Assembly: GCA_947247005.1 (NCBI GenBank)
Contig: OX365946.1
Location: 49,192,734-49,256,733 of the forward strand
DNA from: Spisula solida
Lineage: Eukaryota; Mollusca; Bivalvia; Venerida; Mactridae
DNA: 64,000 nucleotides
Reading direction: 5' to 3'
In this document: piece by piece, positions 559 to 55,545 of the stretch
Layout of the letters: each line of letters opens with the position of its first letter
Position numbering within the stretch: the stretch's first letter is position 1
Notes under the pieces: model-generated
Seen by the model: the letters and a program-made list of their open reading frames with translations, nothing else
Database searches by the model: none
Told to the model about the DNA's origin: nothing
Made by a program: the position numbers and the translations under genes

Positions 559-701
559 TATAAATAGCAGTTTTACGCCTTTATCTTGCCTGTGGCTGTC
601 AGTTACGGACGGTGTCAGTATGCAATAAACGTTCATGTGGACTAATATTTCTTATATTATGACAATGGAATCGTGCAAAAACGACGTGGTTGCTACTTCC
701 G
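559..701 (+). promoter_or_regulatory. candidate TATA promoter with short first coding exon
   Basis: A TATAAATAG box at 559-567 is followed about 76 bp later by an ATG at 635-637. The reading frame stays open for 22 codons and includes two further in-frame methionines at 659 and 665. It stops at a good splice donor (G at 701, then GTATGT), a phase-1 junction. No signal peptide or domain can be recognised and no downstream + strand exon was found to join it. An upstream ATG near 620 opens only a two-codon frame. A chance combination is quite possible. Confidence 0.22.
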
Positions 702-3562
702 GTATGTAACATTGCTACACCTCTAGGCACATCATTTTCGGGTTAACGTTACATACATGTAAAAACTATGCTTTTGGATTACTGAAGCTGTGATTTATTT
801 TTGCATGTCAATGTATCGTGTATTTCCATTAACACAATTCGGATATTTTCATTCACTCGAGATCCACGAGCGAAAAATGAGATTTGTCCACGTGGTTACC
901 ACGTGTTATTAGCGTGGTAAAACACATTGTCAGATGTTCTCTACTGACAATGTTATTAACTAGGAACATCATTTAATTCGTACAAAGTCAGCTAAATAGT
1001 TCAATAAAAAAGTACGGGTCCCTTAAAAGTGGTGGGTTTTCAAAGTCCGTAAGTGTATGCGTCTGTAGCTTAGATATTCACTAAATATGATAAAACTGCA
1101 CGTTTCCTGAAATATGCGTACACCATTTCGCTAACAAAAACAAATAATGATATTTGATGAAAGAATATTATATTCTCGTGTATGTCATTATACATGTAGG
1201 ACTGGTATATTTTCCTGCGATTTCTTGACACAATGAGCTAAACTAGCCCTTGGAAGATGATAAAGAATGAATAATGATAAAGAGCAGGTGAAGTGTTTTA
1301 ACATAACATCCCTATTGAACGGGCAGCCAATGTGGCATAGGCAACATAATCGCTACCGATGGTTACCATTATTTAACTAGATGTCGATTTACCGAATGAA
1401 CTGCGGACGATACTACAATACGGAAACGAGCAGAAGGGAACACATACATACGAAGAGTATCAATATTAAGTCGTGTTGAGAGTAGCTTGTCAACGGAGTG
1501 CGAATGCACATTGTAACCAAATTAGTAGCAAGTAATACATGTCTTATGTTTGGAAGTACAAATGCAAAAATGTATAATGTAGCTACGCTTCATTATCACA
1601 ATTCCAAACGTCACTCAACAAAAGTAATCTAGATGAATGGACTAACTTACTAGAGAGAGAATTAACGGTGGTTAACTCAATAATGCCTGTCATGTAACTA
1701 ACAACTGGATTCATAACCTAACGACCCCCTTAAAGGTGGACTTTCTTATAGCATTGCTAAATAAGTAATATGAATTATCTAAGACAATTTTTATTTTAGT
1801 GATAATAATAAAGTGCGATTCAATTAGATCCATGCAATCATAAACACAATACAGACGTTAGTTTTCTAGAATACAGATTCGTCATATAGCGGTATTGTTG
1901 TTGAGTGTTGTCCATATGGTGTGCCGCTCTGCTTAAGTCGTTATTGTTGACTCGGGTTAAATTTGATTGACTAATGCCACAGGCTGTCAGAGTGTTGAAT
2001 CGTTAGTTCATTGTGTTGTTATTAATACGGGGTGCTGTTATCACTGTCGATTTAGTATAAACCGAAATGACCCTTCACTCTCATTGAGCTAAAACATAAA
2101 TCAGTACCCGTGTCCACCACAAAATGTACAGATACGGATGATATATTTGTTAATTATCCGACCCACATTACCTATAGACAAGGATAACAAACCATCTCCC
2201 TTCAAACAAAATATATATCTTGTCTTTGGGAAGGTGGAACATCCATGGCGTGGCAACATAATAGCAGTACATGATTTACAAATAATGAGGACAAGATTGT
2301 ACTAATATTAACGGAATACTAGCAATCGGACTCTTGACAAGTGTATACTGACAAACGATTAGTTCTGTTACTGCATGATGAATATAATCAACATAAATAA
2401 TAGCAGCACCTTACTATTGGTACATGGGTAATTGCTTCACGTTACCTCTGATGCACAAAAAATAATGGTTGCTGCAACATTGCGATGGTGAGTGGATTTA
2501 TCACCAAATGTGTTTTGAATGGTTATATATATTACAAAAGGCCGTATGTAAACAACGAGAAAGTATGAGTTATTCAGTCACAAACAGTTCATACAAGTAA
2601 TGACTTCCCGTAAGATAAATGAAGATGTAGTGCAGGAAATATACAAGAATATGACATGAAAATAATGTGTAGTACTACAATATTTATTCAAATCAGTTCA
2701 AGACACTCGATTTTGTTAATACGCGAACGAAATTTACACGTACATGTCAATGTCACAGGCGCAATACTATGCTTCAACATTTGGGTATCAGAAAGTGTAC
2801 AATACATGTATAGTGCAAACCATAATGGAGATAAGGGGTTTGCAAAAATAATCACACCAAGAAGCTCTCATGACATTTTTACACTAAAATTTCAGATACT
2901 ATGTGGACTAAATAGAAGACGAAGAGAAGAAGACAAGATCATTTGGTCTCTAATACCGCTGTAATATAATAATTTGATAATGTATATGCGTATAAAATAC
3001 AACACTTGTGCTGGCACGTTGAGTGATAAATACAAGTCGTCTTTCTAATCCTGGCATGCCTTAAATCAATAAGTTCCTCACGATTTGTTAATCTGGAAAC
3101 AACAATGAATTCGAATGTGAAAACACATTTGATATGACTGCCCATGAGCCGCAGGGAAATTACATTAGATAATTTAATGGAAATCTTAGCATCCCTACGG
3201 GGGGACCGTCATCGACCTGGCATATCTATAACATAATATTAAATCACCCTCGCCTTCGATTAATAACATACTTGCGTGGTATACATTGTCAGTAATTATA
3301 AGGTAGCACTATTTGGTATCTGAACTACTAGAATATATGACAGTTACCTGACTACCTACGTATGTTAGCACGTCTTACCTAGTCATACTACAGAACAATT
3401 TGTGTCATAACAATGATGTTTCGTTAATAAATTAAAAACAACGTATTATATTCGCGTAACTGACTTTATTGGCATTATTAAATCGAGGTTACGAGCATTA
3501 CAAATACATTTCTTATATTTCTATTTTAGTTTGTCCCGTTATGTGTACCCAAATTACTAATT
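702..3562. other. non-coding, no recognisable feature
   Basis: About 2.9 kb of AT-rich sequence. The open frames of 68-102 codons have no domain, splice context or composition bias and are expected by chance. Small palindromic words such as CCACGTGG near 890 are present but form no larger structure. Confidence 0.5.
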
Positions 3563-3564
3563 AT

Positions 3565-3960
3565 CCCCCGCCGAAGGCGAAGGGGATATTGTAATGGTAG
3601 GCGTCATTCCGTCCGTCCGTCCGTCCGTCCGTCCGTCCGTCTGTCTGTCTGTATGTTCGTCCGTCCGTCCGTCCGCGTCCGTCCATCCGAACTTCTGTGT
3701 GCAACTCTTCCTACATTTCTTAAGGGATTTTGACGAAACTTTCACAGAATAACTGCTATGATGTCCCCCAGCATATATTGTCAGGGTTTTTTATTCGACC
3801 ATTTTGGCAGAGTAACTGCCCTTTGTTGATTACACATAAACTCTTCTGTGTGCAACGCCTCCTACATTTCTCATGGAATTTGTCAAAACTTTAACAGAAG
3901 TTCAGTTATGAGATGTCCGGCGTTATCATTGTCCGATAATATTACCTAATGTAACATTCA
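3565..3960. repeat. dispersed repeat with (TCCG)n microsatellite
   Basis: The segment opens with a short hairpin (ATCCCC...GGGGAT around 3563-3587), followed by a TCCG/TCTG microsatellite at about 3608-3690. Two diverged direct copies of a roughly 60-bp unit follow, at 3691-3749 and 3843-3899; both start CTTCTGTGTGCAAC and share CTACATTTCT. The ordered hairpin, microsatellite and unit layout looks like a copy of an interspersed family rather than a simple microsatellite. The 62-codon minus-strand frame across the microsatellite is a repeat artefact. Confidence 0.7.
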
Positions 3961-6012
3961 AGTCGAAGCAATCACACAGATTATAACTTTCTGCCATATT
4001 TCTATTACAATTGTCGTTTAAATGAAATATATGTTGCCTGTGTATATACGATATTCGTAGTTACAAACAAATTCATGTACAGTTGTATCAAACATGTTTG
4101 CATTGTTAACATAGTACCGGACTTATCTCGAGCATTTGGCTTGTCCCGATGGGTCCTCGAGATAACGAGGTTTTACTGAAGCCTATATAAGACTTTCTTT
4201 CATACACGAGAAGCAGCCTTGTAACCTTATCACTGTAGCCAGTACTTAATATAGCTCCTCCCAAACAAAGCACGATTTAAATTTTCCAGTAAAAAATGAA
4301 AGAAGACATTGGCGGATCAGCTTCAGTTGATGTATGGTATTTGATATTACAGCTGGGATTGGTGAATGTAGTGTACATACTCATTATATTTTGTGTAGGA
4401 CACGCTCATTAACAAGTGTGTGATTTCAGCGAACGTAAGGCTGAATTACGACCGACGTGATTTTAGAACTCTTAAATACTGCAGTTACATAGAGTCTGTA
4501 TTTATAAATACAGCGTAGTATAAATACATGTATTGTTCTTCTGGAGTGACTTCCAGTTCGATTACATTTTCCCTATTAAAGAGCAAAGACAACTGTCACT
4601 GACACAGCAGGTACATGTGTTGTTGTAATTATGAAATATGTCTCAACGCCGTATTATTTTTTTTGTCTGTTTCTCACACCAATTAAATAAAATGATACAA
4701 ACATCCACTGCTTAAATAGCCAGAATGTTTGTACTGAAATTGTAATTCAATTGATACAATTTCGTTCTAAGGGATGGAGAGTGCAAACTAGAAAATAATG
4801 TAACCATATCCCTACATTAAGCAACACAAACATATTGAAAACACATTAATTTTTTACAAAGCCAGCTGACGAGCAGAAAAATTAAAAAGGTGTGTGATGA
4901 ATCAAGCACAATCACTTGGTTAAATGTCTTGCAGGTACTTGAAAAACTCATTACAGAGAGATTTTATAGCTGCCGATGGGAATGAAATCGCGGAAGAAAA
5001 GGGCTAATGAAAATGTTGGCACTTCTGCAAGACGAACCTAATCACATGGAAACATCCTTATGTACAACATGATTCGATATGTCTGTTAATGTGCGAACCA
5101 AACACAGCATCACTTTAGTTATGACAATTTCCGAGTCAGTTTCATTTAATCCTGATGATTATTTTTCAGAATTACGAAGTAGGTCAGGGAATACTATGAT
5201 ATATACAAAATGACAATTTATCGTTGATTTAGGTTATCGAATGTGAAACAGTAATATTTAATGCGCGGTAATATATCGTCACAGTAGAAAATACTAGGAT
5301 TCCTTGTAGGATAATTACTGAGAAGGAATATGCGGTAGATTTACGTATTTCTCCTCCATAAGATAGCTCGTTCCTTGGGTTACTAACGGTGCTGGCTCCA
5401 ACAAAACCGTAGCATTGATTGAAACGCTTATTTCCTAGTATTCAACTTGCTTGGAACACATGAACAGTTGACTTCGTTTTGGTTCGACGACGGCAGTCAA
5501 ACTTGAATATGTGTTTACCTCGTACATAACCAAGTCATTTGGGTTGAATAAGAAGCTTAAACATGTCTAAAAATATCTAGATTCTGACCACATTGTGGTT
5601 GATATTGTGATACCTTGGATAATGTAAAGCAATGTCTTAGGTCATTTTCTTCATTAACATTAATTATTCGTTAATAACGTCCATTTCTAGTCGACACCCA
5701 GACTCTAGTCTCTTAGTAACAACTGCTGTTTTAGAATCAGGAAACAAACGCACATGGAATGGGTTAATTAACAGACTGAGTTTTTTCGGGAGAGTTTTTT
5801 CGGGAGAGTTTTTTCTTTGCATGTTGTCTTACACATTAAACTATCAGATGCTAGTTTTTTCCGGCCAAAAAATAATAAAACACTACACTTTGTAAATATA
5901 ATATTTGAATTATGTCACTTCAAAGCGTTATTGCATGTATGTATGATCATATTGATATATTATTAAATGCTTTATTAAACCTCCGCACGCCATGTGATAA
6001 TACATTTGTAGC
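3961..6012. other. non-coding; small palindrome and 14-bp tandem repeat
   Basis: No exon is seen. A perfect 10-bp inverted repeat (TTATCTCGAG at 4123-4132, CTCGAGATAA at 4156-4165) flanks a 23-bp loop. A 14-bp unit TTTTTTCGGGAGAG is repeated at 5781-5794 and 5795-5808, with a partial third copy after it. Confidence 0.5.
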
Positions 6013-6230
6013 GTTGTTATTCCCCTATCTTTGATGGGGGTATATTGCTTTGCCTATGTCGGTCCGTCGGTCGGTAGACCAAATGGTTTCCGTTCAATAT
6101 CCCAAGAATGATTTGCCATAGAAATTACACACTTGCCATTAAGGTTAATCATTAACGGTAGATGACCCCTTTGATTTTTAGGTCAGTAGGTCAATGTGAT
6201 TATTACCAGTTCAGACTTTTGGGCTGCCGT
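6013..6230 (+). repeat. dispersed repeat, copy 1
   Basis: The segment starts with CCCCTATCTTTGATGGGGG and includes a TCGGTCCGTCGGTCGG stretch, a 'gttcaatatcccaag' block and an 'aggtcagtaggtcaa' block. The same ordered blocks occur on the opposite strand at about 43015-43290, so the two are copies of one interspersed family. No coding potential is seen. Confidence 0.7.
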
Positions 6231-9200
6231 AGGGACATTCGTGTTTTACAAACATCTCTTGTTATGTCTATGTCTGTCGATAGGTTACTGACTGCCCCAA
6301 GACATTGTACATAATGTTTTGGTATATTACTTCAAATATATTATATTCACACCATTTTGTCAATAACCTTAACAATCATCATTTTCTTACCTTATTGGCA
6401 AATAATGTGCTAATTCATCTAAAATACGATGTATTGTGTCTTTGAAGTCTGTGAAGACGATGTTTCATTCGTTTTGCCTACACAATTATCTGACGAAATG
6501 TTGGACTGAATCTGTATCTCATTCTGCCTTATGTTGAAAGGTGGCTATATACTTGTTACAGTAACGTCAAATAACTTCGCGACATCACACAAAAAGGCCT
6601 CGAACAGGGCCTCTACAAAAACAACTAGAAGATATTTCTTCTGTATTTAGCTTCATTCTGGTTGGTCCTTTATATGATGGAAAATCATACTATAATTTTT
6701 GTCCATATATCCGGTTTTCCTATAGAATGTTGCATATACGAGTACATGTATATCTTTAAAGGCGTGACACTGTATGCAAACGCTATCTTCTTGCGATAAC
6801 AATTATCGGTCAACAATTCGTGTGAATTTGAAGTAATTCCATTGTGACTCCTTTACCATATAGTCCATTGGGGAGTTGGGCGAACCATTCCCCCTCCTAG
6901 GAAATTTTGGGCACTGTTTTTTTCTAAAAAGCCTTCGGTCAGTAGAGTACTTTTGTAAAGTCTGCACCCAGGCTATAATTTTTTGGGGTAAACGTTAACA
7001 ATATTAAAGAAAGTGGGAATTTCTATAATTGGTTACATTTGTAACTACATGTACGATCGCATTTATTTATATTTTGTAATAAAACACCTTCATGGATTGA
7101 TATTAACTTTAAGATAATCGGTAACCAACAATGGTATAGTACAGTGTTATTGATTATTTTATTTGGTAATTATGAAAACCTATGACCTACTAATACTTTC
7201 CCAAATTATTCTTTTCTTACATTGGGGCGTTTAGCAGGGAAGGCAAATATAAAAGTATACAGTAATAGTATCCATATGATAGCTCCAAATTCTTTAGGTC
7301 ATCACAATGTAAATTCTCTGGATGCTACTCACTTAAAAACAACAATATGCTTAATACATGAATATACTTCATGGATATCAGAGTTAATGATGTATTAAGT
7401 CGATGTTCCTAGTAAAATCAGAGCTGCGTTAAACCTGGTTTGATTAATTGTTTCAAATAATCCCAAGTTCACTGTATGTCTCAGACCAGTATATATTGTG
7501 AGACTTGTAGGATGTAGGCAATACTTCAGAGGAATTATAGCCATATTTGAATTTGCACAGAAGTAAAGTAGCTCCGTCATTCTTCTAACCTAAATGCATG
7601 TTCAATTCGACCGTTCCAATACAAACGTAATTTGTCTGTTACTTTGTGTGTAAAATTATAGCGTTATGTTCGATAGACGTATTTAAAAAAACACAACATC
7701 TAACCTTAACTTCTGGTAACATTGCCTCAAACAATCATTCAAAACTAAAAAATCAGATCTGAAACAGATTATTATAAGGCTATTTTCTTGAGTATGAAAT
7801 ATGATTAGCTTATAGAATGCGCAGCGGTTAATTTTTAAATCATTTTTATTTTATCAGGAAACATTACTCACTTTTTAAGGCTCTCTGTGTAATATAGAAG
7901 TTTCTGTAAGTTATGAGACATTTTACTGTTTAAAACATTTCTAGTTTGAGTACGAAATTGAGTCGAGCATGGAAAAAGCTTTATAATCATGGGGCCTGAT
8001 GCTTTGAGTGTTTACTTGATGTGCATACAGCATTTACTATGCATACATATTGAGTTAAAATGAGTGTTGAATGTAGTGCCATTGAGATTGACGTGGACAT
8101 TCAGACCCTCTTGTAAATGCACCTCCCGTTAAAATCAAAATTATTAAATAGTGACAGCAAATAACATAAACAAACAGATAATATATTACGAAACTATGTG
8201 TTCAATTGCCTGGTTGATTAGCTAGTTAAATAGTTCACAGCTGTACAGTTTAATAGGACATCGGAAACGTACTACTAGATATTTTCGAAGTATTTTATAC
8301 AGTTAAACTATTCACCAATCTGATGCAATTCCAATGTTCGAGAAAACATGAACGTTGGCGACTTTATCAACTTTAGAATCCTCGTCAGCACACTAGTACA
8401 GAGTAAGTAGAACGGTAAGTATGTTTATATACCGGTACATTGCTCCACCCTCATAAATGATTAAAGTAAATAGGAACGTGTGCAATCTGGAATCAGATTT
8501 ATTTTACATTAATGATACACTCGTGGGAATATCACTTGGAGATCCAATGCCGATCTTGAGCAAATGGTGTCTGTTTAAACTATTGTGCGAACAAACACAG
8601 GTGCTAGAATTTAGATTAATATGTAAGTTTAGTCTTTAGATTTGATTTTGTACAAGAACAGCGTTTGATGTAACTAGAATATTGCATTACCCAAGATAAT
8701 GAATCAGTATATTCCTACGGAAACTAAACGCTCATACGCTAAAGAAACTGCTTTTATCAAATACACTTGATTTAAAAGTGTTTTCAATTTTGATCTGAAC
8801 AAGTGAATGTCTTTCAGGGGTAGCTGGGTATAGATCGTTCTACCATGTTCGGCCAGTGACGTCCATAGATCTGTCTGCTAGTTTTGTTCGCCGTCTAGAA
8901 AATTGAAAGTTAGTGCCACTTTCCTCAAATACAGTGGAGCTCTGTACCAAGGCTATTTCAGTAATCTGCCAAAAAACCTGTATTCGTACAATGTAGCTCT
9001 AACTACATGTAACAAGAAACACGAACTAATAGACAGAGTGGTGCTAGGAGCAAAGTACCGAATATTGTCAACGGCGCTGTTCTAAAATCCATAAAAAATC
9101 GCCAATGAATAAGCCATGCGATGGAACATAAAATATATATACAATCATGAACTATCAAAAAGAACGACACTAGTATAATAATTGCTCGTAGTTGCTTCAA

Positions 9201-15200: not shown

Positions 15201-16654
15201 TGTTGCGGCGTCACGTAGTTATGACAAGGTTGTTTTGTTGAAAAATGTTAGTATGGCTTAGAAATAGAAGCGTATTACTTCTTATTCTATGCACTGCATA
15301 CCTTAAACAACTATCATAAATATATGAGGAATCATCGAATTGTTAATCATAGTAATGATAGTACGTTAGCCTGTGTGATAATTGTGATGTTGTGTTATCC
15401 GTGATGGTCTTTACAGATAAATACATAAGGGGTATCGCATTAATCGTTCGATATCACTACTAAAATGAAATACAGGGAATAGTCATGGCTATGGAGTGTA
15501 CGAAGTATATATCTTTTGCGTTTAAATATCTATTGTATAACCATGTCTCTAACGCTCTAAAATTATCTCCGGAATACTTGGGTCACAAATTAGAAAATCC
15601 GTTGATATCTTTAAATATTTTTACATTTCTTTAACCATTAAAATTTCAGCAATCTTTCGTAAACAAATACAAATTAATTACAGGAATGTTGTTTCTGTTT
15701 TTTGTAAAGATTAATAATAAACACTGCAGCTTTTTGCGAGTAACTGTCAATTGAAAATACCTTCCAGGAAATAATCTTATATCACTACTATCATTACGTA
15801 GATATGTTATTACCTTCCATAAAAACATGATTCGCTGTACTCGATTGCCATTTTTGAACAAATAGGAGCATTTTTAAGTCGCAATAAACAGGTGTCAAAA
15901 TAAATCCGAAAAGCATGCTATTTTCAATTAGTTTTATTGGTTGGAATTTGGATTATTATAAATGGATGTAATCCGTATACCATTTCTGGGAAGCGATCAA
16001 AATATGAAGATATTAATTCGTGAACCAACAAGCATCATTTGGTATAAATAAGAAGGATTCCCTTTGTTTTTGACCGTCTTAATTGTCGACAGCAAATAAT
16101 TTCATTTGTATTTAAAGTTCTGATGGAGACATAAGGATTCAGGTTTCGTATCGTATGTTGAAGTGTAACGAACACTGACATTTACTTTTTTAAACAACTA
16201 CGGCAAGAAGACACAAATTCTGCTTCAAATGAACATAAGGCCAGTGTACTCTAGTATACCATCTTCTAAGTTCAATAAATTACTACTTGTTGACGAAAGG
16301 CTATGTAATTTTCCAGATAAATCATTGATACATACACCTTTTGGACATAAATCGTAGAATTCTTCTAAATAGTATCATAGAAACATGCCAAGGACAAGAA
16401 CAATACATAGCGAACGCCCCTCGTATGTGTAGCACACAGGTACAATTGTATAGTGCACACAGGATAATGAGAAAGGCGGGAATATTTGGTAAATTCCACA
16501 AAGGAGGATAAATCAGATGTGTAGATTTATCAATGACGTTTTGAGATCATTATTGACCTTATTTGTTTCCTCAAGTAATTTGTAAAACCAATTTTGCAAC
16601 ATTCTTACCAGTATTTAGTTTGCCGAATTGAACTTCTATTAAGTTTGTACTTAC
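12231..16654 (-). other. intron between Ig2 and C-terminal exons
   Basis: About 4.4 kb bounded by donor GTAAGT after the Ig2 exon and acceptor TTTCAG before the tail exon. It contains the micro-exon candidate at 13490-13513. The rest is AT-rich with no other repeat or exon that I can support. Confidence 0.5.
13490..13513 (-). CDS. candidate 24-nt micro-exon of the Ig gene
   Basis: The minus strand shows a long pyrimidine-rich tract ending TATCATTTCAG, then 24 bases (CC, seven codons, G), then donor GTAAGA. It enters and leaves in phase 1, so it can be skipped or included without a frame change between the Ig2 and tail exons. Included, it would insert AETSHTKR into the membrane-proximal linker. 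A match of acceptor, donor and both phases in the right intron is suggestive, but such short matches also arise by chance. Splice-junction RNA reads would decide. Confidence 0.35.
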
Positions 16655-16966
16655 CATTTAAAACATTTACTTTTGTACTTGTTATTTGCATATTTGACGA
16701 CCGACAGACATAAGTTCCATCGTCCTCCATTCTGGCACGATCAATTTTAAGAACACTGATAAATGTTTTTTTCTCGAGCGTATATTGCTTCGAAATGTGT
16801 ATTCCCTTTCGAGATATAGAAGTCAATTTTTGTCCATTTCGAAACCAGTCTATTTCGTCTGGTGGATAATATTCACCTGTGGCGTTACACTGAAGCACAA
16901 TAATGTCTCCTCTCTCAACAAATTGTGGCTCTGTAATATTTATTTCTGGTATTTCAACTTTCGGTT
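16655..16966 (-). CDS. Ig2 exon of Dpr/zig-8/lachesin-like cell-surface protein
   Basis: This single 312-bp exon encodes the whole second Ig domain. The acceptor is TTATTTCTTACAG above 16966 and the donor is ATG|GTAAGT below 16655; both are phase 1. Hallmarks in order: first cysteine in VLQCNATGEYY, tryptophan in IDWFRNG, and DDGTYVC with the second cysteine. N-glycosylation sequons are NIT (in EINITEP) and NAT (after the first cysteine). The join to the previous exon gives NVVEPKVEIP, the usual Ig1-Ig2 linker form in this family. Members are neuronal recognition proteins acting at the cell surface through Ig1. Lachesin, DIP and IgLON relatives have a third Ig domain; here the next exon is the anchor tail, so the protein is two-Ig, like Dpr and zig-8. 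Confidence 0.9.
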
Positions 16967-17833
16967 CTGTAAGAAATAATGTAATTTGTATTTCCACTTG
17001 TATACGTCTATGCAGGACATTTTGATATAATATTATGAAGTTACTGGTTTTGTTTCTACAGTATTGTAATTTTGAGAATATGTGAAGTCGAAATTTAACC
17101 AACTAACTTTCTATAAAAATTGTTTCAAACGACTATCCAAAACATGTCAATCAATTTGCCCAAATATTACATACATGCCGCTTCGCAATTTATATTAAAC
17201 ATGCTTTTATGTAAACTATGGTAAATATATTATTTTATGGAACGTAAGATAATGAAGAATTTGTCTGTGTATCGTGAAGTTTTACAAAGCGAAAATGTTG
17301 ACGTTGACTATGTATGCAACTATGCGAATTTCGGCATAGACGTACGAAATATGACCCATACGCTTTGTGTGAAATTGAAAGTTCGACATAAGTTATTACT
17401 GGCGGAGAAGACAATGAAAGCTGCATTCATACTATATATTTAATTACGTTTGTGTCTACCATTTTACTGTGGTGAAGTTATTATATTATTGACATAAGTT
17501 TTTACCTGATTAAATGGATGGACTACCCTTAAATGCATATGTCGTATAATTTTACTAAGCTCTGATTTTATGTGGTTATATATCCATGGTAACGGAGAAC
17601 GTGGCTTCTCTATGTGATTGAAATGTTAACGTTCTAACAACCCAACGTGACAGTTGAATATGTTTAGATATGTTTGGTATGCACAGACTTGGCTTTCATT
17701 GTTAAGTGAATTAATCAAATAAAAGTGATCTGCGTCTATACCGACGAGCTAAATAGACAGTTACCATGCCTACACGACTGGGTGAAAACTTAATACATTT
17801 ACGCTAATGTCTACGTTAAATTAGGTTTCTTAC
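16967..17833 (-). other. intron between Ig1 second half and Ig2
   Basis: An 867-bp phase-1 intron with consensus donor GTAAGA and acceptor TTACAG. Overlapping 63-68 codon frames at 17235-17443 on both strands are chance frames. Confidence 0.8.
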
Positions 17834-24200: not shown

Positions 24201-25588
24201 ACAAACAAGAAGTCGCCACAGTTATGTCTAGATAATGCCCAACGCCATATATCAACGTCATCTAACATTGTTGGTATATAATGTATTTATCGATGAGTGC
24301 AACAGTGCAAGTAAGTTTGTGAAAAAATATTTGTTGACGGTGAAAAGAGAAAATGAACTACCGTTGATTGTGACTAAATGACTGTGGGAGCACCTTAAAA
24401 TTTGTTTATATGAACATAATTATATCTAGTTTCAAAGTTATTTATACTGACGTTGTATATTTAGCCAGGTAAGAACACAATCTATAGAGATACCAACCAA
24501 ACATGATGATACAAATGTTTATTGACGAACTCAAATATTTAGACCGAGACAAAAGTAAATAAAAATTAAATATATTCCGTTTAAGAAATGAAATACACAG
24601 CTAAATGCAGTAACTAAAGTGAAGCCGTTTTGTTTTCAAACGTAGAAAGCAATTTTGTCAAATGTGCAAAGTATAACTTTTATTGAAGGTCGCTTGATCT
24701 AGATATATTTCTCCACTTTCTTACGATATATCGACAGTTCGTACAGTTTGCTCATTACCGTATCTTAATGTGTTAAAGATGTATGTATTCCCGTCACAGT
24801 CTTAATTGTTTCCAGGGATAATTGCTATTCCGACTTCCGTCAGATTTTTGTAGAGCGATATATTGCATAGATTCAGGCGATAAGACACTTTATGTCTAAT
24901 TCACTTCACAAAATTGGCAAAGGTCTGACTCCAAATGTAGGTTCATTTGGAAATACAGGCGATTTCGACCGAGGCTACCTTTCCATGTTATTTAATAAGT
25001 TTAGAATGTGGCTTCGATTTCTCGGCTAATTGATTAAGTGTATTAGAATGATTTCACGTAATTGTATTTACAATATTGTCTAATATCGTTAATGATAGTC
25101 TAGACGCTAAGAATGGAATAAAGAGCTATTTCATCTAAACCTATTGCTCTGTTAAGTATTCGATTAAATGAGTACAATCCAACGAAATTGGAAATTTCCT
25201 GATATTAAATAAGTTTTATAACTGATTCATCCGCTAGTCCGTCTTACAGATCGCACGCGTATGTTATTTAATTATGGCGTGCGTATCGGGAGAAAGTACC
25301 ACTCTTTAACGTATCAAAGTGCTGAAACATAGTTAGAGACGAAACCATGAATTTGTTTGTTGTTCTATTGTACAGTCGTAGTTTATACATTTATATATCG
25401 ATGTGATAGTCTCAGTGCCTAGAATCAGACTGCTGGATATAATTTACAGTGTTGTAACACTCACCTATGCTTTTATTTGGCCAAACTATTTGTGTATGTC
25501 GAGCTATATGGTTTCTTCTGAGTGCTGTCCGATTTAAAATTACATTTTTAAACATTTATATATCGTTATTGATAGTCTGAGGGTCTAG

Positions 25589-25837
25589 AATAATGCAAAA
25601 TTATTTTAGAATTAAAATAATTATATTTATTTTTTCGAGATCCCCACTAAACGTGTTGGCTACGCACCAGCTTTGTCCGAAAGGCATTAGTCATACCTGG
25701 TCGATTTTGGCTGGGTCCTGTTTTATCGCTGTATGACAGCGTCGTAATGGGGTACCATCAGAGGGTATATATTCAGTAAATCTCGTGCACCGCGCACTTG
25801 TTCAGTTACATCCAGACAGTTCGTTAGTAATATTTTC
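25589..25837 (+). repeat. left terminal repeat A1
   Basis: This 249-bp segment is the same as 29373-29621. It starts AATAATGC, then a perfect 10-bp inverted repeat (25599-25608 and 25613-25622, 4-bp centre). Near its right end are TATATATT (25766-25773) and an initiator-like TTCAGTT at about 25801. That suggests a + strand promoter with transcription starting inside A1, as expected for the left end of a retroelement. Confidence 0.85.
25766..25810 (+). promoter_or_regulatory. putative core promoter in repeat A
   Basis: TATATATT at 25766-25773 is followed 30-40 bases on by TTCAGTT (25801-25807), an initiator-like sequence. A small GTGC/GCAC hairpin lies between them (25785-25797). The same arrangement exists in A2 at 29550-29594. 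The call is inference from spacing and motifs. Confidence 0.35.
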
Positions 25838-26875
25838 ATTTTTCGGTGTGGTTTCAAGGTCAACAAATCTGGAGAAACGGCGAATTTGAACACTTCTGAT
25901 GTGAGGTAGAAGAGGGTTTAAAAGATAAGTAATGCGTTTTTGTTTTGTAGTTCTTACTGTGACTAGTGGAACAGGTTTATGTACACGGTTTGGTAAATTT
26001 ATAGAAACTTATAAGTCGGATTAGTCGGAAACGGTCGAGTCGACACTGGGACCGTTTTCAACATGTCTGTATTGAATATTGATGTGTATTGATTATTAGT
26101 ATAATAATGTATTGGTTGAATAGTGAAGCGGGTATTACATCTTTGTCACCTAACTTTACTAATTTAACCGCCACGTGCTTAAAGTACGGTAGAGAAAACA
26201 CACGAGTAATTATTAGCGACAGGCCAAATGTCCTTTGCTATGCTATATAACACACGGTAAGGCCACGTGTTGAAATTTTATTTTGTTTATGGGACGAATT
26301 ATATATTTTGTTTCAGACCGTTCAGGGGTAACTGGCGTATATTACCAGGCACGTGGTTTAAATTAACGGACTTGTTTTGACTGAACATTTCTTTTATAGT
26401 TTGCCACTATGTAGAGTTCGGCTGATTAGACACTTGGTTTGTGAAGATAACTTTTTGTCGGGGTACATTTTATAAGGTTTATACTGATACACTCGTGCGA
26501 AGTGTATACAGCACTCGGTCAGTACCATGGTATTCACGTGCATTTCTGGTGTACTTTAGAATATAATTTAATTGGCTAGTGTGTCATTCATGTTTATGGC
26601 TAAAACAGCCGCCGAAGTTTTTATAAGTCACATACCATGGGCAGTTGTGTATTCAAACTTGATCACGAGATTGTAACTGGTACTTTATGTCAATCAACTG
26701 CACGGTTTTCTTACTTTTTCTTACTTTTTACATGTAGTTGTGGATGACTGATCACTGCTTTTGTGAGACTAGGCTATAGCGTCTACAAATCAGGTATAGT
26801 CCGGAGAGATTGACGCGCATATCGAACTGTTATTAGGCTTATTTAACAGTTGATACTTGGTCTATGTTGGTAGTT

Positions 26876-27960
26876 GGTATGTTTTCATGAGGGGGGAAAT
26901 GTCACGAAGACGCTCTATGTGAAATATCAATACAAATCTGGTAGACCGATATTGCAAGTTTGCTGGCAAAAACTTGTATGATAAGCGCAATAACCTTGTG
27001 TTGTGTTCGGGCGTGGGTGTCGGGATCAGGTAAATTTCTCCGAACTATAGCTGACTCAAGTCTTACTCATGGTACAGTAAGCCAGGCTTGTCGATGAGTC
27101 AAGCGTTTTATCAGCAGGGTATAGGATGTCGTTACGTGCTGGTCCGAGTGGAATGTACATTTTCTCATTTTCTCGATCTAGGATACGAGTAACAAATTTA
27201 CTGACCTATGTACATGCATGGGGGTCTATCCTAGTATTCAAATAACACATAATAGCATTAAATTAACAGTGGCCTGTATTCAATTAGACTCTAGGAGCTC
27301 GTGGTCCTAGGCCTACTTTACTATGAGGGTTTGTTTGAGAAGTTAGTGCAGTCATTGCTTATTACACATATTTATGTATATTGTAGTGGTAATCTTATTA
27401 AGAGAAACCAGGATGCTGTCGCAGCTAGGACACGGATCGACGTCAACGAGAAGGCTTTGGTTTTGACTCGACTTTGTGTATTCACTGCCTTTAACAGGGC
27501 ATCCGATCAAGCTGCAGTCTAAGTTAAGTATAATTAATACATACGCATAGTACAATTTGTGATGTACTTGTTTTTACACCACTCTGTTACTACGAAGCTG
27601 TCTAAGTTATTAGTACATATGTGACCGTCAGTCATTTTACGGTACAATTGTTGGTTTGGTTTGAGTTTTTGCAGAGGAATACGTTGTTTGTATCAGAGAA
27701 ACGTAAGGTTCGGAGAGTGTGGCATGATCCTCGACCTTCTTGAACATAATTCAACAGCTATCTTGTTACAAGTGTATATTTTTGTTCTCGTGGTATATTT
27801 TCATGAGCGGAGAGTATCACGAGGGCGCTCGATGTGTGGTACAAAAGCAGAGCTAAGGGACCGATATTGACGATTAGCTCGAACGTTGATATTATCAATA
27901 CAGGAACTTGTATTGTATTGGTGCTTGTGTCGGGGCCGGGTAATTGTCTCTGTACTGTAT
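26876..27960 (+). repeat. diverged internal direct repeat in body 1
   Basis: A segment at about 26876-27045 (TTTTCATGAG, then TGTCACGAAGACGCTCTATGTG) recurs in diverged form at about 27789-27955 (TTTTCATGAG, then TATCACGAGGGCGCTC). Both copies also share ACCGATATTG and a GTG(T)CGGG block in the same order. Body 1 thus contains an old duplication of about 170 bp. The 73- and 69-codon frames here are not shared between the copies. Confidence 0.55.
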
Positions 27961-28464
27961 GTGAGATTATAGAGCCATTCAACTTGCTAGGTTTCTTATG
28001 AGAAGTAACGTGTGCTGTCGATGGTCAGATTGTTTACTTTACATTCAAGTTTAGGCAGCCAAGCAACGCCATATAAATATGGCGACTTATAGGCATTCGA
28101 GCCAGACGTTGTTGATGAGAAAACAAACGCTGTGCCCCGAGTAAGATACTTACAAGTTCACTTTAAAGTGTCAACATTTTCTTGGAAGCTAACACATGTT
28201 CGGAATGTAAATTCATGTTATACAGTATAGTTTTAGGATTTGCAGTTCAACGAGTTAATAGAGTCGGCCTTCAATTAAGACGATTGGACAATTTGATATA
28301 TCCACACCGGATATCGTTGCAAATACTGGGGGTTTTCCGTTGGATTGAATTCACCTTAATGATGTAGGTTTAGGTTTTATTTAGATTATATTTGGGATAT
28401 GATCTTAAGGAACTGAGTTGCGTTTTTCAGAATTTTTGGGGTATAAATTTTATAATTTATTGTG

Positions 28465-29380
28465 GCGGAAAAATTCGGTCGACCGAGAGGAATACGGATG
28501 TTACCTAGGTATTTCGTACAATATTAAATAGTTTATGTACTTTAAACGTGTTTGACCGATCAGGGCTCCTCTTCTCGTTCCGGGGACCCGACTGGGAATG
28601 AGGTGCCTCTGATAGGGAATCTAAATTGGTTGAGACTTAACGATGTACTACGGAAAGGTATCATACGGTTGATCAGTGAGTGTGTCTGTTGCGTAGTATT
28701 AGGTTTTGCCCTCCTCTAATGGTAATTCCTAGGTTGTTGATATTGTGTACACACGGTCACGGCTTGTGGCCCAGTAAGTTGGTTGTGTATTCACTGCCAC
28801 GGCTTGTGGCACAGTAAGTTGGTTGTGTACTCACTGCCACGGCTTGTGGCTCAGTAAGTTGGTTGTGTATACAGTGCCACGGCTTGTGGCTCAGTAAGTT
28901 GGTTGTGTATACAGTGCCACGGCTTGTGGCTCAGTAAGTTGGCATGATACGACCACGGCTTGTGTGTCTCACAGTGTTGTTGCATCCGGGCTGTACATTG
29001 AATCGGCACGGGTTGCGGTCCCTTCCATTTTCCGGGAACCCGATGGTGGGGGGATCGCGATCTGACTGTCGGTTGATTTACAGCTTGGTTGGTGTCTTAC
29101 GTACAGCCACGGCTTGTGGCTCGCACTGTGGAAGTCGTAGTACATCTCAGGGGTAGTAGAATAATCAGTGGGAGCATAATCAAATTACGTATAACGAATC
29201 CGTTTTCCTTTCGGTCGACGGGATTTACAGACATACACGGATACCCGGTATTGTCTTGAGCGGCCTAACTTATCCACATTTATATTATACGTTGAATTAT
29301 TTAGAAACCATGTTAGTGTGTGATTAAATCGAATATTACTGGAAATGGTGTTGTCTTCATATCGAGTAATAAAATAATGC
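28465..29380 (+). repeat. internal repeat B1
   Basis: This 916-bp segment is the same as 31201-32116. It begins GCGGAAAAATTCGGTCGAC, carries the 40-bp hairpin array, and ends with poly(A) signal AATAAA (29368-29373) overlapping the AATAATGC word shared with A2. The 70-codon frame at 28944-29156 recurs in B2 only because the DNA is identical; it shows no domain. Confidence 0.85.
28756..28942 (+). repeat. 40-bp tandem hairpin array in B1
   Basis: Four full units and one partial unit of 40 bp, starting at 28756, 28796, 28836, 28876 and 28916. Each unit carries GCCAC-GGCTT-GTGGC (first unit GTCAC) followed by AGTAAGTTGG. The sixth GCCAC/GTGGC hairpin, at 29105-29121, stands alone with a longer stem (AGCCAC/GTGGCT). 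Stem bases are kept while the spacer varies slightly. Confidence 0.85.
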
Positions 29381-29621
29381 AAAATTATTTTAGAATTAAA
29401 ATAATTATATTTATTTTTTCGAGATCCCCACTAAACGTGTTGGCTACGCACCAGCTTTGTCCGAAAGGCATTAGTCATACCTGGTCGATTTTGGCTGGGT
29501 CCTGTTTTATCGCTGTATGACAGCGTCGTAATGGGGTACCATCAGAGGGTATATATTCAGTAAATCTCGTGCACCGCGCACTTGTTCAGTTACATCCAGA
29601 CAGTTCGTTAGTAATATTTTC
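29373..29621 (+). repeat. internal repeat A2
   Basis: Second copy of A, overlapping the end of B1 by the 8-base word AATAATGC (29373-29380). The B1/A2 seam would match the junction formed if the right end (B2) and left end (A1) of the element were joined in a circle. Confidence 0.85.
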
Positions 29622-31200
29622 CCTCCCGCCACACCCCATAATATTTTGAACATTGGGAGATGTTCAGTGTTATATCAGTTCGTTTTGAAAAAATAGATAC
29701 TTAATGTTACGGACGCTGTATATTTAAATTGGTGGTCACATTATAATATTTAACAAACTATTAATAGTGCGTACTTATTAGTTCTGCACGTTAGGTAGTA
29801 GATAGAACTTATGTATTCATGTCATTATAACGTGCATGGGTACGGGCTGTGTTTTTCAAGGTGGTCATGTCACGTGACGGGTGTTGTATCAAGCGGGGCT
29901 ATACGAATAAGTCTCGCGTTGGGTTGTAAATCAAGTAGGGTATAAGTCGTTAGATAGCAGTTTCGCGGGAAAACAGCAGTTATATGCATGGCTTATTAGT
30001 AACCTTATTTTAAGTCAGTCGAGAAATAATTTAGATTCGATAATTCTTTCTATTGCAAACATTAGAACGGAAACTGGTGTCCTGATAGTTTTTAGTTATT
30101 GTTTTGTTTTAAAAATGTATTTATTTACATTTAGTATTGGTTACTTGAATTGAATATGACATTTTGTAAGTACATGTAGAACAAATGCTTCTGAACAAAT
30201 TCCGTAGTTTCAGTATTCTGATGAATGGTCTGGCGCCGGGGTTTAAAAGACTTCGGTGTTACGGATCCACGTTTCCTCCTCAGGGGGTTTTCACGTTTCC
30301 TCCTCGGGGGGGTTGTTCGTGTACGACCAGCATTCCGTATGATGAATATAGCACAGTCTGTGATGCAGCCTTTGCTAGAGCATGTTTAGTTAAGCAGAGA
30401 CGGACTAATCTAAAACCAGTTTATAATAAGCTAAAACATATCTGAAGAATATGTAACATGTCGTCTCCATTATATTTTATATCATTGGGATATGAAATGT
30501 TTTATACATGGTACTGCTTAGGTAAATATCACACACAATTGATTACTACTGTATGAATGTTATGAACATTTAGTAAAGATTGCAAACCGTCTTAAAGTGA
30601 AGTATTACCACAGCAAACAGTTTGTTGTTTGTAAATGGTATAGTTAAGCTGGTGTATAATTATATGTACATGTATTAATCAAAAGTTTTAGTCGTTTATA
30701 TCTTATGGGTTTTCACTGCCTTTGTAGATGTCACAACCTATTAATTTTATGGTCTGTTTTAAACCGTTTACTGCTGTTGAGTATATATTTTACAGGATGT
30801 ATTGGTTTGTTAATGTTGACTTGGTCATGATTGCACTTCATTCCACGGGAGCACAGTGGCGCACTACACAAGTAAGACGACGACAAACAACGACCTCAGT
30901 CGTCCTCGTCTGGTGTTGAATGGGAAGGTACAGGTGTATATTCTATGAACGATTTGTGTTGGTGTTACTATATTTTCACATTTTCCTGGATATGGGGGAT
31001 TTGCCGTGGACTTTATTGACATTCTGGTCGTGCTTGAACTGGTGCCTACAAAATGTTTAACGTGTTATACGGTTGAATCCATTGTGCTCTTTGACGGTTT
31101 TATAATTGCTGTGTTGTTTATATATATATGAACTTTTGGTGTATCAATAATTTGCAATATGAACTTTTATTTTTTGTCGCTCTCATGTAATTATATGTAA
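29622..31200 (+). other. body 2 of split-repeat element
   Basis: This 1.6-kb segment shows no similarity by eye to body 1. It includes an 86-codon frame (30185-30445) over a duplicated CACGTTTCCTCCTC-plus-G-run (30268 and 30292) and a 63-codon frame (30728-30919). Neither shows a known domain. Confidence 0.5.
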
Positions 31201-32116
31201 GCGGAAAAATTCGGTCGACCGAGAGGAATACGGATGTTACCTAGGTATTTCGTACAATATTAAATAGTTTATGTACTTTAAACGTGTTTGACCGATCAGG
31301 GCTCCTCTTCTCGTTCCGGGGACCCGACTGGGAATGAGGTGCCTCTGATAGGGAATCTAAATTGGTTGAGACTTAACGATGTACTACGGAAAGGTATCAT
31401 ACGGTTGATCAGTGAGTGTGTCTGTTGCGTAGTATTAGGTTTTGCCCTCCTCTAATGGTAATTCCTAGGTTGTTGATATTGTGTACACACGGTCACGGCT
31501 TGTGGCCCAGTAAGTTGGTTGTGTATTCACTGCCACGGCTTGTGGCACAGTAAGTTGGTTGTGTACTCACTGCCACGGCTTGTGGCTCAGTAAGTTGGTT
31601 GTGTATACAGTGCCACGGCTTGTGGCTCAGTAAGTTGGTTGTGTATACAGTGCCACGGCTTGTGGCTCAGTAAGTTGGCATGATACGACCACGGCTTGTG
31701 TGTCTCACAGTGTTGTTGCATCCGGGCTGTACATTGAATCGGCACGGGTTGCGGTCCCTTCCATTTTCCGGGAACCCGATGGTGGGGGGATCGCGATCTG
31801 ACTGTCGGTTGATTTACAGCTTGGTTGGTGTCTTACGTACAGCCACGGCTTGTGGCTCGCACTGTGGAAGTCGTAGTACATCTCAGGGGTAGTAGAATAA
31901 TCAGTGGGAGCATAATCAAATTACGTATAACGAATCCGTTTTCCTTTCGGTCGACGGGATTTACAGACATACACGGATACCCGGTATTGTCTTGAGCGGC
32001 CTAACTTATCCACATTTATATTATACGTTGAATTATTTAGAAACCATGTTAGTGTGTGATTAAATCGAATATTACTGGAAATGGTGTTGTCTTCATATCG
32101 AGTAATAAAATAATGC
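31201..32116 (+). repeat. right terminal repeat B2
   Basis: Identical by eye to B1. The hairpin array is at 31492-31678, the lone long hairpin at 31841-31857, and AATAAA at 32104-32109. It ends AATAATGC at 32109-32116, after which the sequence departs from the A2 sequence that follows B1. This marks the right end of the element. Confidence 0.85.
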
Positions 32117-32707
32117 TTCGGCTTTTCATACCTTTTAAAACATTTACTAACTTATAAGTATTTCGTGTCCGTAGAGCTCCGTTGTTTGAAAATTAAACAT
32201 AAACACGCTAGGGTCATTCTATACAATTTCAGGAAATTTGTTTTTAAATTATCAGTTGTGTTGATTTGTGTTCATGGAACCAAATTAATTTCAAGAAAAT
32301 TGTCAGTTGCATGCATAGCAAGACCTATTACTGGTGAGTAACTTGGGCAGAGTAGATATAATACGGTAAAAGATGATCAATTTCCTCCTCTTATGGTGGT
32401 TTCTAGTTCCTTCTGGAGGGGTAGCTTAGCAATGATACATCAAGCAATTGTAATGCGAGTAAATAATCACCCAAACAAAGGAAAGGGAAACGTTTTCGGT
32501 TTGTCTTTATTATGGTGCACAATAAGCAATTGGCTGGGTTTATCAATACAAATTCACTTGTACTCCGCACAGTAATACATTTAAAGTAGATGCTGCAAGG
32601 AGTGTTCGAAAGGAAATGCAACTTACTCTCTGACTTTTTATTGACATAATCATTTACTGTAACAATGAACTCATAGAAAACCTTTAACGAACTCTCCTTT
32701 ACACATA

Positions 32708-54310: not shown

Positions 54311-54324
54311 CTATAGATATGAGC

Positions 54325-55545
54325 CAGTCTCCAGGAAAACCTGCTATTTTGACATTATGCAATTACTATTACGTAACAAGGTTTATATAAAGCTCTAAAA
54401 TGAGAACAAAATACATATGAGCCAGTCTCCAGGAAAACCTGCTATTTTGACAAAAATATTTATTTTGAGATTTTCCATAGCTTGAAAGAATAATCTTTAT
54501 GAAGCAAAATACAAAAGAAATTTTGTTAATATCTTGTTTTTTAAGGAAGTTACAGCTGTTTTTGTAGTTTCCCCTTTCGGAGCTTTTTTGTGTGACGTCG
54601 CAAACGTCATTCAAACGTTAATTGACGTAATTATAACACGTATTTCATAATTACACTATTTGATCAATTATTGACATGAATTGTTCAAAATGGTATCACA
54701 TTTTAGCAGTATCTTTTATTTTTTTAAATATTTACCAAAATCAAAATTGTTCGCATTCAGAGAAAGGCTACTATTGTTTTAAACAACTAACTTCTCGTTT
54801 TTCTCACTATGAGTACTTTTCCGAAATTGGTCACCATAGCAACGAAGTATGTGATTTCGACATAATTCATGGGAAAATTAAAAGCTAAGGTATAGTACTA
54901 TATGAGTAAACTTCAAAAATAGAATCAATAGTCATATGTATTTTTTCTTATCTTAGAGCTTTTACAAACCTTGTTACATAATGGTAATTACATAATGTCA
55001 TTATAGCAGGTTTTCCTGGAGACTGGCTCATATATATTGATCCTACTTTAAGTAAGTTACCATTATAGTACTATATCTCATCTTTGAAAATTTATTATGA
55101 ATTATATCGAAATCCCAAATTTCGTTGCTATGGTGACCAATTCTGGAAAAGTGCTCCGATTGAAAAAAAACGAAGCAGTAATAGCCTTTCTCTGAATGCA
55201 AACCATTATGATTTCAATGTACATTTAAACAAATCAAAACATAATTCTAAAACATGATACTGTTTTAAACAGTTTATGTCAAGAATTGATCAAATGTTGT
55301 AATTATGAAGTTATCGTTGCAGTAACGTCGACCAACGTTTCGATGACGTTTGCGTCGTCACACAAAGAGCACCAAATAGGGAATGTACAAAAACAGCTGT
55401 AACTTCCTTAAAACTCTAGATATTTACAAACTTTCTTTTGCATTTTGCTGCATTAACATATTCCTGAAAGACTATGGAAAATCTCAAAATCAATATTTTT
55501 GTCAAAATAGCAGGTTTTCCTGGAGACTGGCTCATATATATCTAC
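54325..55545. mobile_element. compound foldback element with interleaved arms
   Basis: The 30-bp end word (ATGAGCCAGTCTCCAGGAAA and onward) occurs four times: direct at 54325 and 54418, inverted at about 55008-55033 and 55513-55540. Arms of about 500 bp (54413-54934 and 55022-55545) pair at roughly three bases in four, sharing TCACCATAGCAACGAA and TTCAGAGAAAGGCTA. A second, shorter pair (54325-54412 and 54935-55035) interleaves with them instead of nesting. All four ends are one family. The 81-, 70- and 65-codon frames here are artefacts. Confidence 0.8.

Follow-up and report, generated by a model that had tools for sequence, protein, structure and literature searches.

A gene-less family with split direct repeats in the bivalve Spisula solida, in all likelihood derived from Ngaro retrotransposons

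We analysed a stretch of 64,000 nucleotides of the Spisula solida genome (contig OX365946.1; C3:49192734-49256733 of the 932-Mb, 36-contig assembly), hereafter called the window, in which positions 25589-32116 hold an element made of two exact repeat pairs, A (249 bp) and B (916 bp), in the order A1-body1-B1A2-body2-B2. We are confident that the element is a non-autonomous derivative, young and present in many copies, of a Ngaro retrotransposon, i.e., of a tyrosine-recombinase (YR) retrotransposon of the DIRS order; as far as the sequences tell, the enzymes that move the family very probably come from relatives in this genome that carry the genes. As a type, a non-autonomous derivative of a known retrotransposon is no great surprise. 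The end completion and integration of Ngaro and other split-repeat retrotransposons are still only modelled; a young, gene-less family with the whole layout shows the cis sequences that travel with mobilisation, its paired variants offer natural evidence for the re-copying of A1/A2 and B1/B2 from one template each cycle, the position of the recombination core at AATAA follows from its many insertions, and the family as a whole is a natural minimal substrate for trans-mobilisation tests of a poorly understood copying mechanism.

Layout of the element and its copies

Both repeat pairs are 100% identical: A at 25589-25837 and 29373-29621 (249 bp), B at 28465-29380 and 31201-32116 (916 bp), with B1 and A2 overlapping by AATAATGC (29373-29380). 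A preliminary description made from the letters alone had reported this order, with identical copies and B1 fused to A2, and the coordinates bear it out; two exact pairs of this size also rule out chance repeats. A blastn comparison at E 0.01 shows nothing in common between the two bodies, nor does the element match any other part of the window. The right end, first placed at 32116, had to be moved: comparison with other loci puts the element's own end at 32113 (...TAATAA + AATAA), the TGC at 32114-32116 being a chance match in host DNA, so that only 5 bp of the 8-bp shared end form the core and the other three are accidental; the other loci thus exclude a target duplication or a core of 8 bp. 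The opening AATAA of A1 is this same core, host-derived at left ends, and the element's own sequence begins with TGC at 25594. The parts are as follows.

25589-25837, + strand: A1, left split repeat, 249 bp (identity to A2; left ends of 26 loci)
25766-25772, + strand: TATATAT, candidate TATA box in A1 judged from the letters alone, likewise in A2
25838-28464, + strand: body1, T+G-rich, no recognised gene
26875-27049, + strand: copy 1 of a diverged internal repeat of body1 (about 175 bp, 67.6% identity); copy 2 at 27791-27959
28465-29380, + strand: B1, 916 bp as repeated (identity to B2); junction core AATAA at 29373-29377
28743-28942, + strand: five 40-bp tandem units with the hairpin GCCAC-GGCTT-GTGGC in B1, found again in B2 at 31479-31678
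29370-29406, no strand: B1/A2 junction, TAAAATAAT-GCAAA-ATTATTTTA-GAAT-TAAAATAATT
29373-29621, + strand: A2, 249 bp (identity to A1)
29622-31200, + strand: body2, no recognised gene
31201-32113, + strand: B2, right split repeat; AATAAA at 32104-32109, core AATAA at 32109-32113

The element stands out by its composition, with a T+G fraction of 0.558-0.589 (20 overlapping 1.5-kb stretches), whereas the 218 such stretches outside it average 0.498 and do not exceed 0.553, and B1 gives an RNA fold z of -5.26 against 20 shuffles. As the preliminary description had proposed, it has no recognised gene: among the 51 stop-to-stop frames of at least 52 aa, the 10 that were scanned gave no Pfam family over the cut-off (the top scores, E 0.0064 for fn3 and E 0.03 for a deaminase family, are both well below it), and the longest frame opening with ATG, GTG or TTG has 86 aa. 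Rfam gave no match up to E 2 over 25400-32400, an exact 28-mer of A no match in viral contigs, and a tRNA scan with bacterial settings nothing useful. Since no protein family exceeded its cut-off, we filed the element as a non-autonomous derivative and not as a Ngaro element proper.

Copies were sought with A and B across the genome, the best 40 of 138 first-look candidates being scored for A (all 99-100% identical) and the best 40 of 152 for B; we inspected the 26 loci behind the 40 listed A matches, the window's own included. The complete layout with the same bodies is present at 19 of these 26, several with later insertions; three of them (L017+L034, L027+L036, L028+L035) were joined from two adjoining stretches each. 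Five loci are A-body1-B singles with clean ends (L022, L023, L026, L029, L033), one (L025) has only A and the first 584 bp of body1, and one (L030) was covered only as far as a point inside body2; the internal B1A2 junction is seen in 20. No A-body2-B single occurs among the 26. Several loci with the full layout had been expected, and the opposite prospect, of singles only elsewhere in the genome, does not agree with these counts. The singles may stem from recombination between the 0.9-kb B copies or from the YR acting on the internal and right cores; an origin similar to the former has been proposed for solo AB repeats in Cafeteria, in the text available of PMC8547959.

The junction word, with up to two mismatches, has 62+42 places genome-wide against 5+0 for a reversed control, and among the 100 listed of these 104 places we find 25 left-end/junction pairs, 22 of them spaced by 3730-3994 bp and the others by 4287, 5533 and 5875 bp, the last being the relative L037 described below. 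Of the 24 other pairs we examined 15, one of them only partly, and in the sequence covered every one of the 15 belongs to the non-coding type. The 5533-bp A1-A2 spacing at C16:38915027 was considered as a coding copy and rejected, the 4 kb read revealing a body1 insertion of about 1.7 kb; so was the 5.5-kb insert of L017, whose ends look like the inverted repeat of a DNA transposon and whose longest stop-to-stop frame has 122 codons. Inserts of this kind, DNA-transposon-like and with inverted ends, lie within element copies at L017 1111-6591, L031 6512-7976 and L028 7867-8931 (oriented positions).

The repeats themselves carry a trace of how they are made. We compared 15 elements with both A and 15 with both B, 16 different ones in all (L031 and L032 left out), at 45 variable columns outside the 8 terminal bases, a 2-bp deletion being counted as two. 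At 18 columns each element with the minor letter has it in both of its slots, and at 27 the minor letter is confined to one slot of one element; at none of the 45 is a variant common to two elements in one slot alone. The within-element difference is 0.27 for A against a permuted mean of 0.76, and 1.53 for B against 3.97 (15 elements each; 0 of 20000 permutations as low in either case), and an element's own partner is its nearest neighbour, ties included, in 13 of 15 cases for A. Each A pair and each B pair looks, from this pattern, as if re-made from one template per cycle; the variants read like those of long terminal repeats (LTRs), i.e., two copies made from one template at insertion, followed by private changes, and would point indirectly to an RNA intermediate. 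Mean pairwise divergence between copies is 0.28% for A and 0.39% for B, and the substitution divergence is 1.02% for body1 (21 complete copies) and 0.84% for body2 (17 complete copies); the lower values of A and B fit constraint or repair on the repeats.

That the repeats could be an assembly artefact, a possibility already raised in the preliminary description, or a segmental duplication of a single locus has a practically negligible probability: both pairs of the window are perfectly identical, as an artefact would have them, but the loci lie on many contigs, differ in their flanks and carry element-specific variants.

Enzyme-coding relatives

One variant pair, with the core AATAATCC and 5875 bp apart, flanks a Phage_integrase match; this locus, L037, links the window family to a gene-carrying element.

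C2:37871000-37880999: L037; A1 304-542; frames 561-5210; B1 5317-6184; A2 6179-6433; spacer 6434-7177; B2 7178-8050

Compared with the window element, its A repeats are 79.5-84% and its B repeats (B1 and B2) 87% identical. Its YR is recognised over the cut-off (PF00589, E 1.3e-7); an SGNH/GDSL frame (PF00657, E 5.3e-4) and a reverse transcriptase (RT; RVT_1, E 0.021) score below theirs. The motifs YLDD and FLGLEID, which we take to be RT motifs, lie in different frames, so that the RT frame of this copy is broken. The first frame (561-1463, in the position of gag) had no match; neither RNase H nor a classifiable gag was detected in the L037 pieces, and no methyltransferase in the nine pieces scanned, a weak test with broken frames. 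A PDB sequence search with two RT pieces returned nothing for the first and two weak matches for the second (best E 0.017, wFAP1.1), and NCBIfam one chance-level match over six pieces. The resulting order, RT-YR-SGNH-B1A2-spacer-B2, is that of Ngaro elements as far as the accessible parts of PMC9210276, PMC8547959 and PMC4157794 describe it.

Within L037, A1 and A2 are 89% and B1 and B2 97% identical, and it is therefore older than the window element; by its sequence it is a sister subfamily and not a near-identical partner. The autonomous relative sharing A and B that had been called for is thus found in part, with a YR, an SGNH frame and a weaker RT, in a sister subfamily and with the RT frame broken. 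Likewise, the first assignment, to PAT or Ngaro, stands for Ngaro and not for PAT, since L037 has an SGNH frame and its YR precedes the internal repeats. A search with the 206-aa YR piece of L037 listed six more copies: three are 93-95% identical and have open frames of 329-331 codons, and three, at 68-86%, contain stops; right sides were read for four of these six (C3:7754850 and C13:18477390 left out). In all four (L039, L040, L041 and L042) a B that is 85-88.5% identical to the window's is followed by host DNA directly after AATAA, with no A2, so that copies lacking the second half are common among the coding elements as well.

The bodies can be placed against L037. The final 217 bp of body1 (28248-28464) are 82% identical to the stretch directly before B1 of L037, and the two ends of body2 (29622-29729 and 30726-31200) are 74-80% identical to both ends of its A2-B2 spacer; positions 1-2410 of body1 (2.41 kb) and 109-1104 of body2 (about 1 kb) have no counterpart there except one weak match each, of 48 and 50 bp, respectively. 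By this comparison, the derivative kept A, B, about 0.2 kb before B1 and both ends of the A2-B2 spacer, and the region with the gag-position, RT, YR and SGNH frames in L037 was apparently replaced by about 2.4 kb without recognised genes.

An alternative that we hold to be improbable is that A-body1-B and A-body2-B are two Crypton-like DNA elements joined as a dimer, which moves as a DNA circle by a YR alone while gene conversion keeps the repeats alike. It would account for the A-body1-B singles with clean ends (5 of 26), for the four of five YR copies that also end in B and host DNA, and for the short core, Cryptons being described with terminal direct repeats of 4 to 6 bp (PMC3212892, in the part available). 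It leaves unexplained that no A-body2-B single exists among the 26 loci and that body2 resembles, at its ends, the A2-B2 spacer of L037, which also has SGNH and RT-like frames, so that body2 appears inherited within a Ngaro layout; besides, all 18 of the 18 columns fixed in an element or subfamily are paired, as expected if the repeats are re-made each cycle. The long split repeats, together with the SGNH and RT-like frames of L037, also led us to reject a plain Crypton derivative.

Beyond these relatives, 149 places with Phage_integrase (PF00589), the best of 257 candidates, were scored, with many open-frame lengths, and the genome is apparently rich in YR elements. A left-end word at C14:41584966 (+) lies 2 kb from a YR frame of 431 codons (C14:41586952-41587428, -), by nesting or as an unrelated neighbour. 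Further variants with the AATAATCC core, with no listed YR nearby, at C2:20011384 (-) and C18:30306404 (+), possibly belong to a second non-autonomous subfamily.

Recombination core and proposed mechanism

The 5 bases that precede TGCAA(A/C)ATTATTTTAG at left ends are AATAA in 17 of the 26 loci, the others being CATAA (3), AATAT (2), ACTAT (2), GATAA (1) and ATTAA (1); at right ends, AATAA is found 24 times out of 24 (Fisher p = 0.0018 for the left-right contrast, by scripted count), and the internal junction carries it in all 20 loci where it was read. The element ends thus share a 5-bp core instead of random target duplications, and the constancy of AATAA at right ends and junction, with its variation at left ends, indicates that the element carries AATAA and that the left copy is the host's version. 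An A precedes the left core in 20 of 26 loci, and a T follows the right core in 17 of 24; the element would recombine with an AAATAAT-like host site.

The clean empty sites that had been hoped for were obtained in part: the ends are clean, and one paralogous empty site was found among 21 joined flanks compared with about 329 kb of sequence. There, the joined flanks of L019 align (190 bp, 74%) to a repeat beside L015 with a single AATAAT, although the alignment extends only about 20 bp to the left of the insertion. The same picture would result here from a 5-bp duplication at AATAA sites; the junction core and the left-right asymmetry speak against it.

These ends also bear on the idea of a non-autonomous LTR element, such as a large retrotransposon derivative (LARD) or a terminal-repeat retrotransposon in miniature (TRIM), or of a nested pair of ordinary elements. 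It would suit the long identical repeats and the lack of recognised genes, as well as the TATA-like motif of A and the AATAAA that closes B; nevertheless, no long repeat stands at both ends, A occurring only at the 26 left ends and B only at the 24 right ends, there is no random target site duplication (TSD) of fixed length, the core recurs where B1 meets A2, and a YR is present in the coding relative. We consider this explanation hardly credible.

At the B1/A2 junction a 9-bp word occurs three times, its orientation alternating, as a recombinase site would be expected to show; perfect 8-bp inverted repeats with a spacer of 0-10 take up 1.0% of the bases of the window. The junction is a suggestive candidate for a recombinase-binding site, equivalent to a circle junction. 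In the mechanism that we hold most likely for the Ngaro derivative, with its RNA, RT, circle and trans steps taken from the DIRS model (as outlined in the accessible part of PMC3266345), the element would be transcribed, a Ngaro RT would copy its RNA in trans, the internal B1A2 junction would serve as the template that completes both ends, giving a circle with a B/A junction, and a Ngaro YR would recombine the AATAA of the circle with an AAATAAT-like host site.

Several points count against the Ngaro derivation and this mechanism. Neither a transcript, a circle nor a transposition was observed. The own partner is the nearest neighbour, ties included, in only 9 of 15 elements for B, the weaker counts arising because many copies are near-identical, and gene conversion could also produce paired variants. 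No near-identical autonomous partner was found, the A and B of the YR-coding relatives being 79.5-88.5% identical to the window's, and the core of L037 is AATAATCC in place of AATAATGC. As seen above, RNase H and a classifiable gag went undetected in L037, RVT_1 and GDSL stay below their cut-offs, and four of the five YR copies read on the right (L037 included) end in B and then host DNA, without A2-spacer-B2. Finally, the mapped core AATAA sits in the left arm of the junction dyad and not between its arms, which makes the dyad suggestive only.

The bodies may, as the preliminary description suggested, hold signals for trans-mobilisation. A bolder idea, to which we give a small but not trivial chance, is that the T+G-rich stretch of about 2.4 kb in body1 and the extra 1 kb or so of body2 form a selected non-coding RNA module, with mobilisation across subfamilies by Ngaro enzymes despite ends that differ by about 12-20%; such a module, acquired by the derivative, might with the same small chance act in packaging, priming or silencing avoidance. 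Under this idea, the A-body-B singles may in addition reflect another way of moving within the family, by circles of DNA.

Elsewhere in the window, an open frame with an immunoglobulin domain (16605-17102, - strand; Ig_3, E 3.5e-13) is probably an exon of an animal gene. Nested inverted repeats with arms of 178, 82, 78 and 66 bp, 79-90% complementary, lie within 1.2 kb at 54313-55541, and would correspond to one fold-back element or to several nested ones; between 51498 and 62818, several families of direct repeats, 40-73 bp long and located near 51.5, 53.6, 60.4 and 62.0 kb, resemble diverged tandem copies of one unit.

Comparison with known systems

Set against the characters of Ngaro elements, the family has the split direct repeats A1-B1A2-B2 in the 19 full loci and, judging from its ends, inserts at a short core without an ordinary TSD, presumably by YR activity; the window element has no RT (RNase H) or YR over the cut-off in the 10 frames scanned, and a relative with the same repeats, L037, codes for both (RT below the cut-off, with the motifs noted above) and has its internal repeats downstream of the YR, with no methyltransferase detected in its broken frames. 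Ngaro elements as described in the accessible parts of PMC9210276, PMC8547959 and PMC4157794 share with the family the split direct repeats, the lack of an ordinary TSD and the solo derivatives, and with L037 the internal repeats downstream of the YR and the SGNH frame after it. The window element differs in having no recognised protein family, an A1-B1 interval of 2.63 kb without recognised genes and an A2-B2 spacer of 1.58 kb against 744 bp in L037.

PAT/Pat1, Kangaroo and Toc also have split direct repeats, and in the nematode form of Pat1 and in Kangaroo the internal repeats lie between methyltransferase and YR, leaving a long stretch after A2 (PMC4157794, in the part available); we rejected this group, the YR of L037 lying upstream of B1A2 and no methyltransferase being detected in the scanned pieces. 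DIRS1-like elements are comparable in that their integration is modelled, in the available part of PMC3266345, as a short circle junction recombining with an identical host sequence without TSD, whereas the repeats of the window element are direct.

As regards non-autonomous forms, the accessible text of PMC12477816 mentions 15 Ngaro families in Ectocarpus and nonautonomous families in general, and that of PMC8498967 reports contigs with TRIM, LARD, short interspersed nuclear elements (SINE) and miniature inverted-repeat transposable elements (MITE). We found no description of a non-autonomous Ngaro in the open-access literature, as far as its texts were available; supplements and Repbase were outside this scope, and a catalogue entry may exist. 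The nearest case described there is SIRE of Trypanosoma cruzi, a short form derived from VIPER and likewise a non-autonomous derivative of a YR retrotransposon with split direct repeats (PMC6681497 and PMC12278014, in the parts available); SIRE corresponds to the A2-B2 part, with about 435 bp, whereas the window element keeps the whole A1-B1A2-B2 layout over 6.5 kb.

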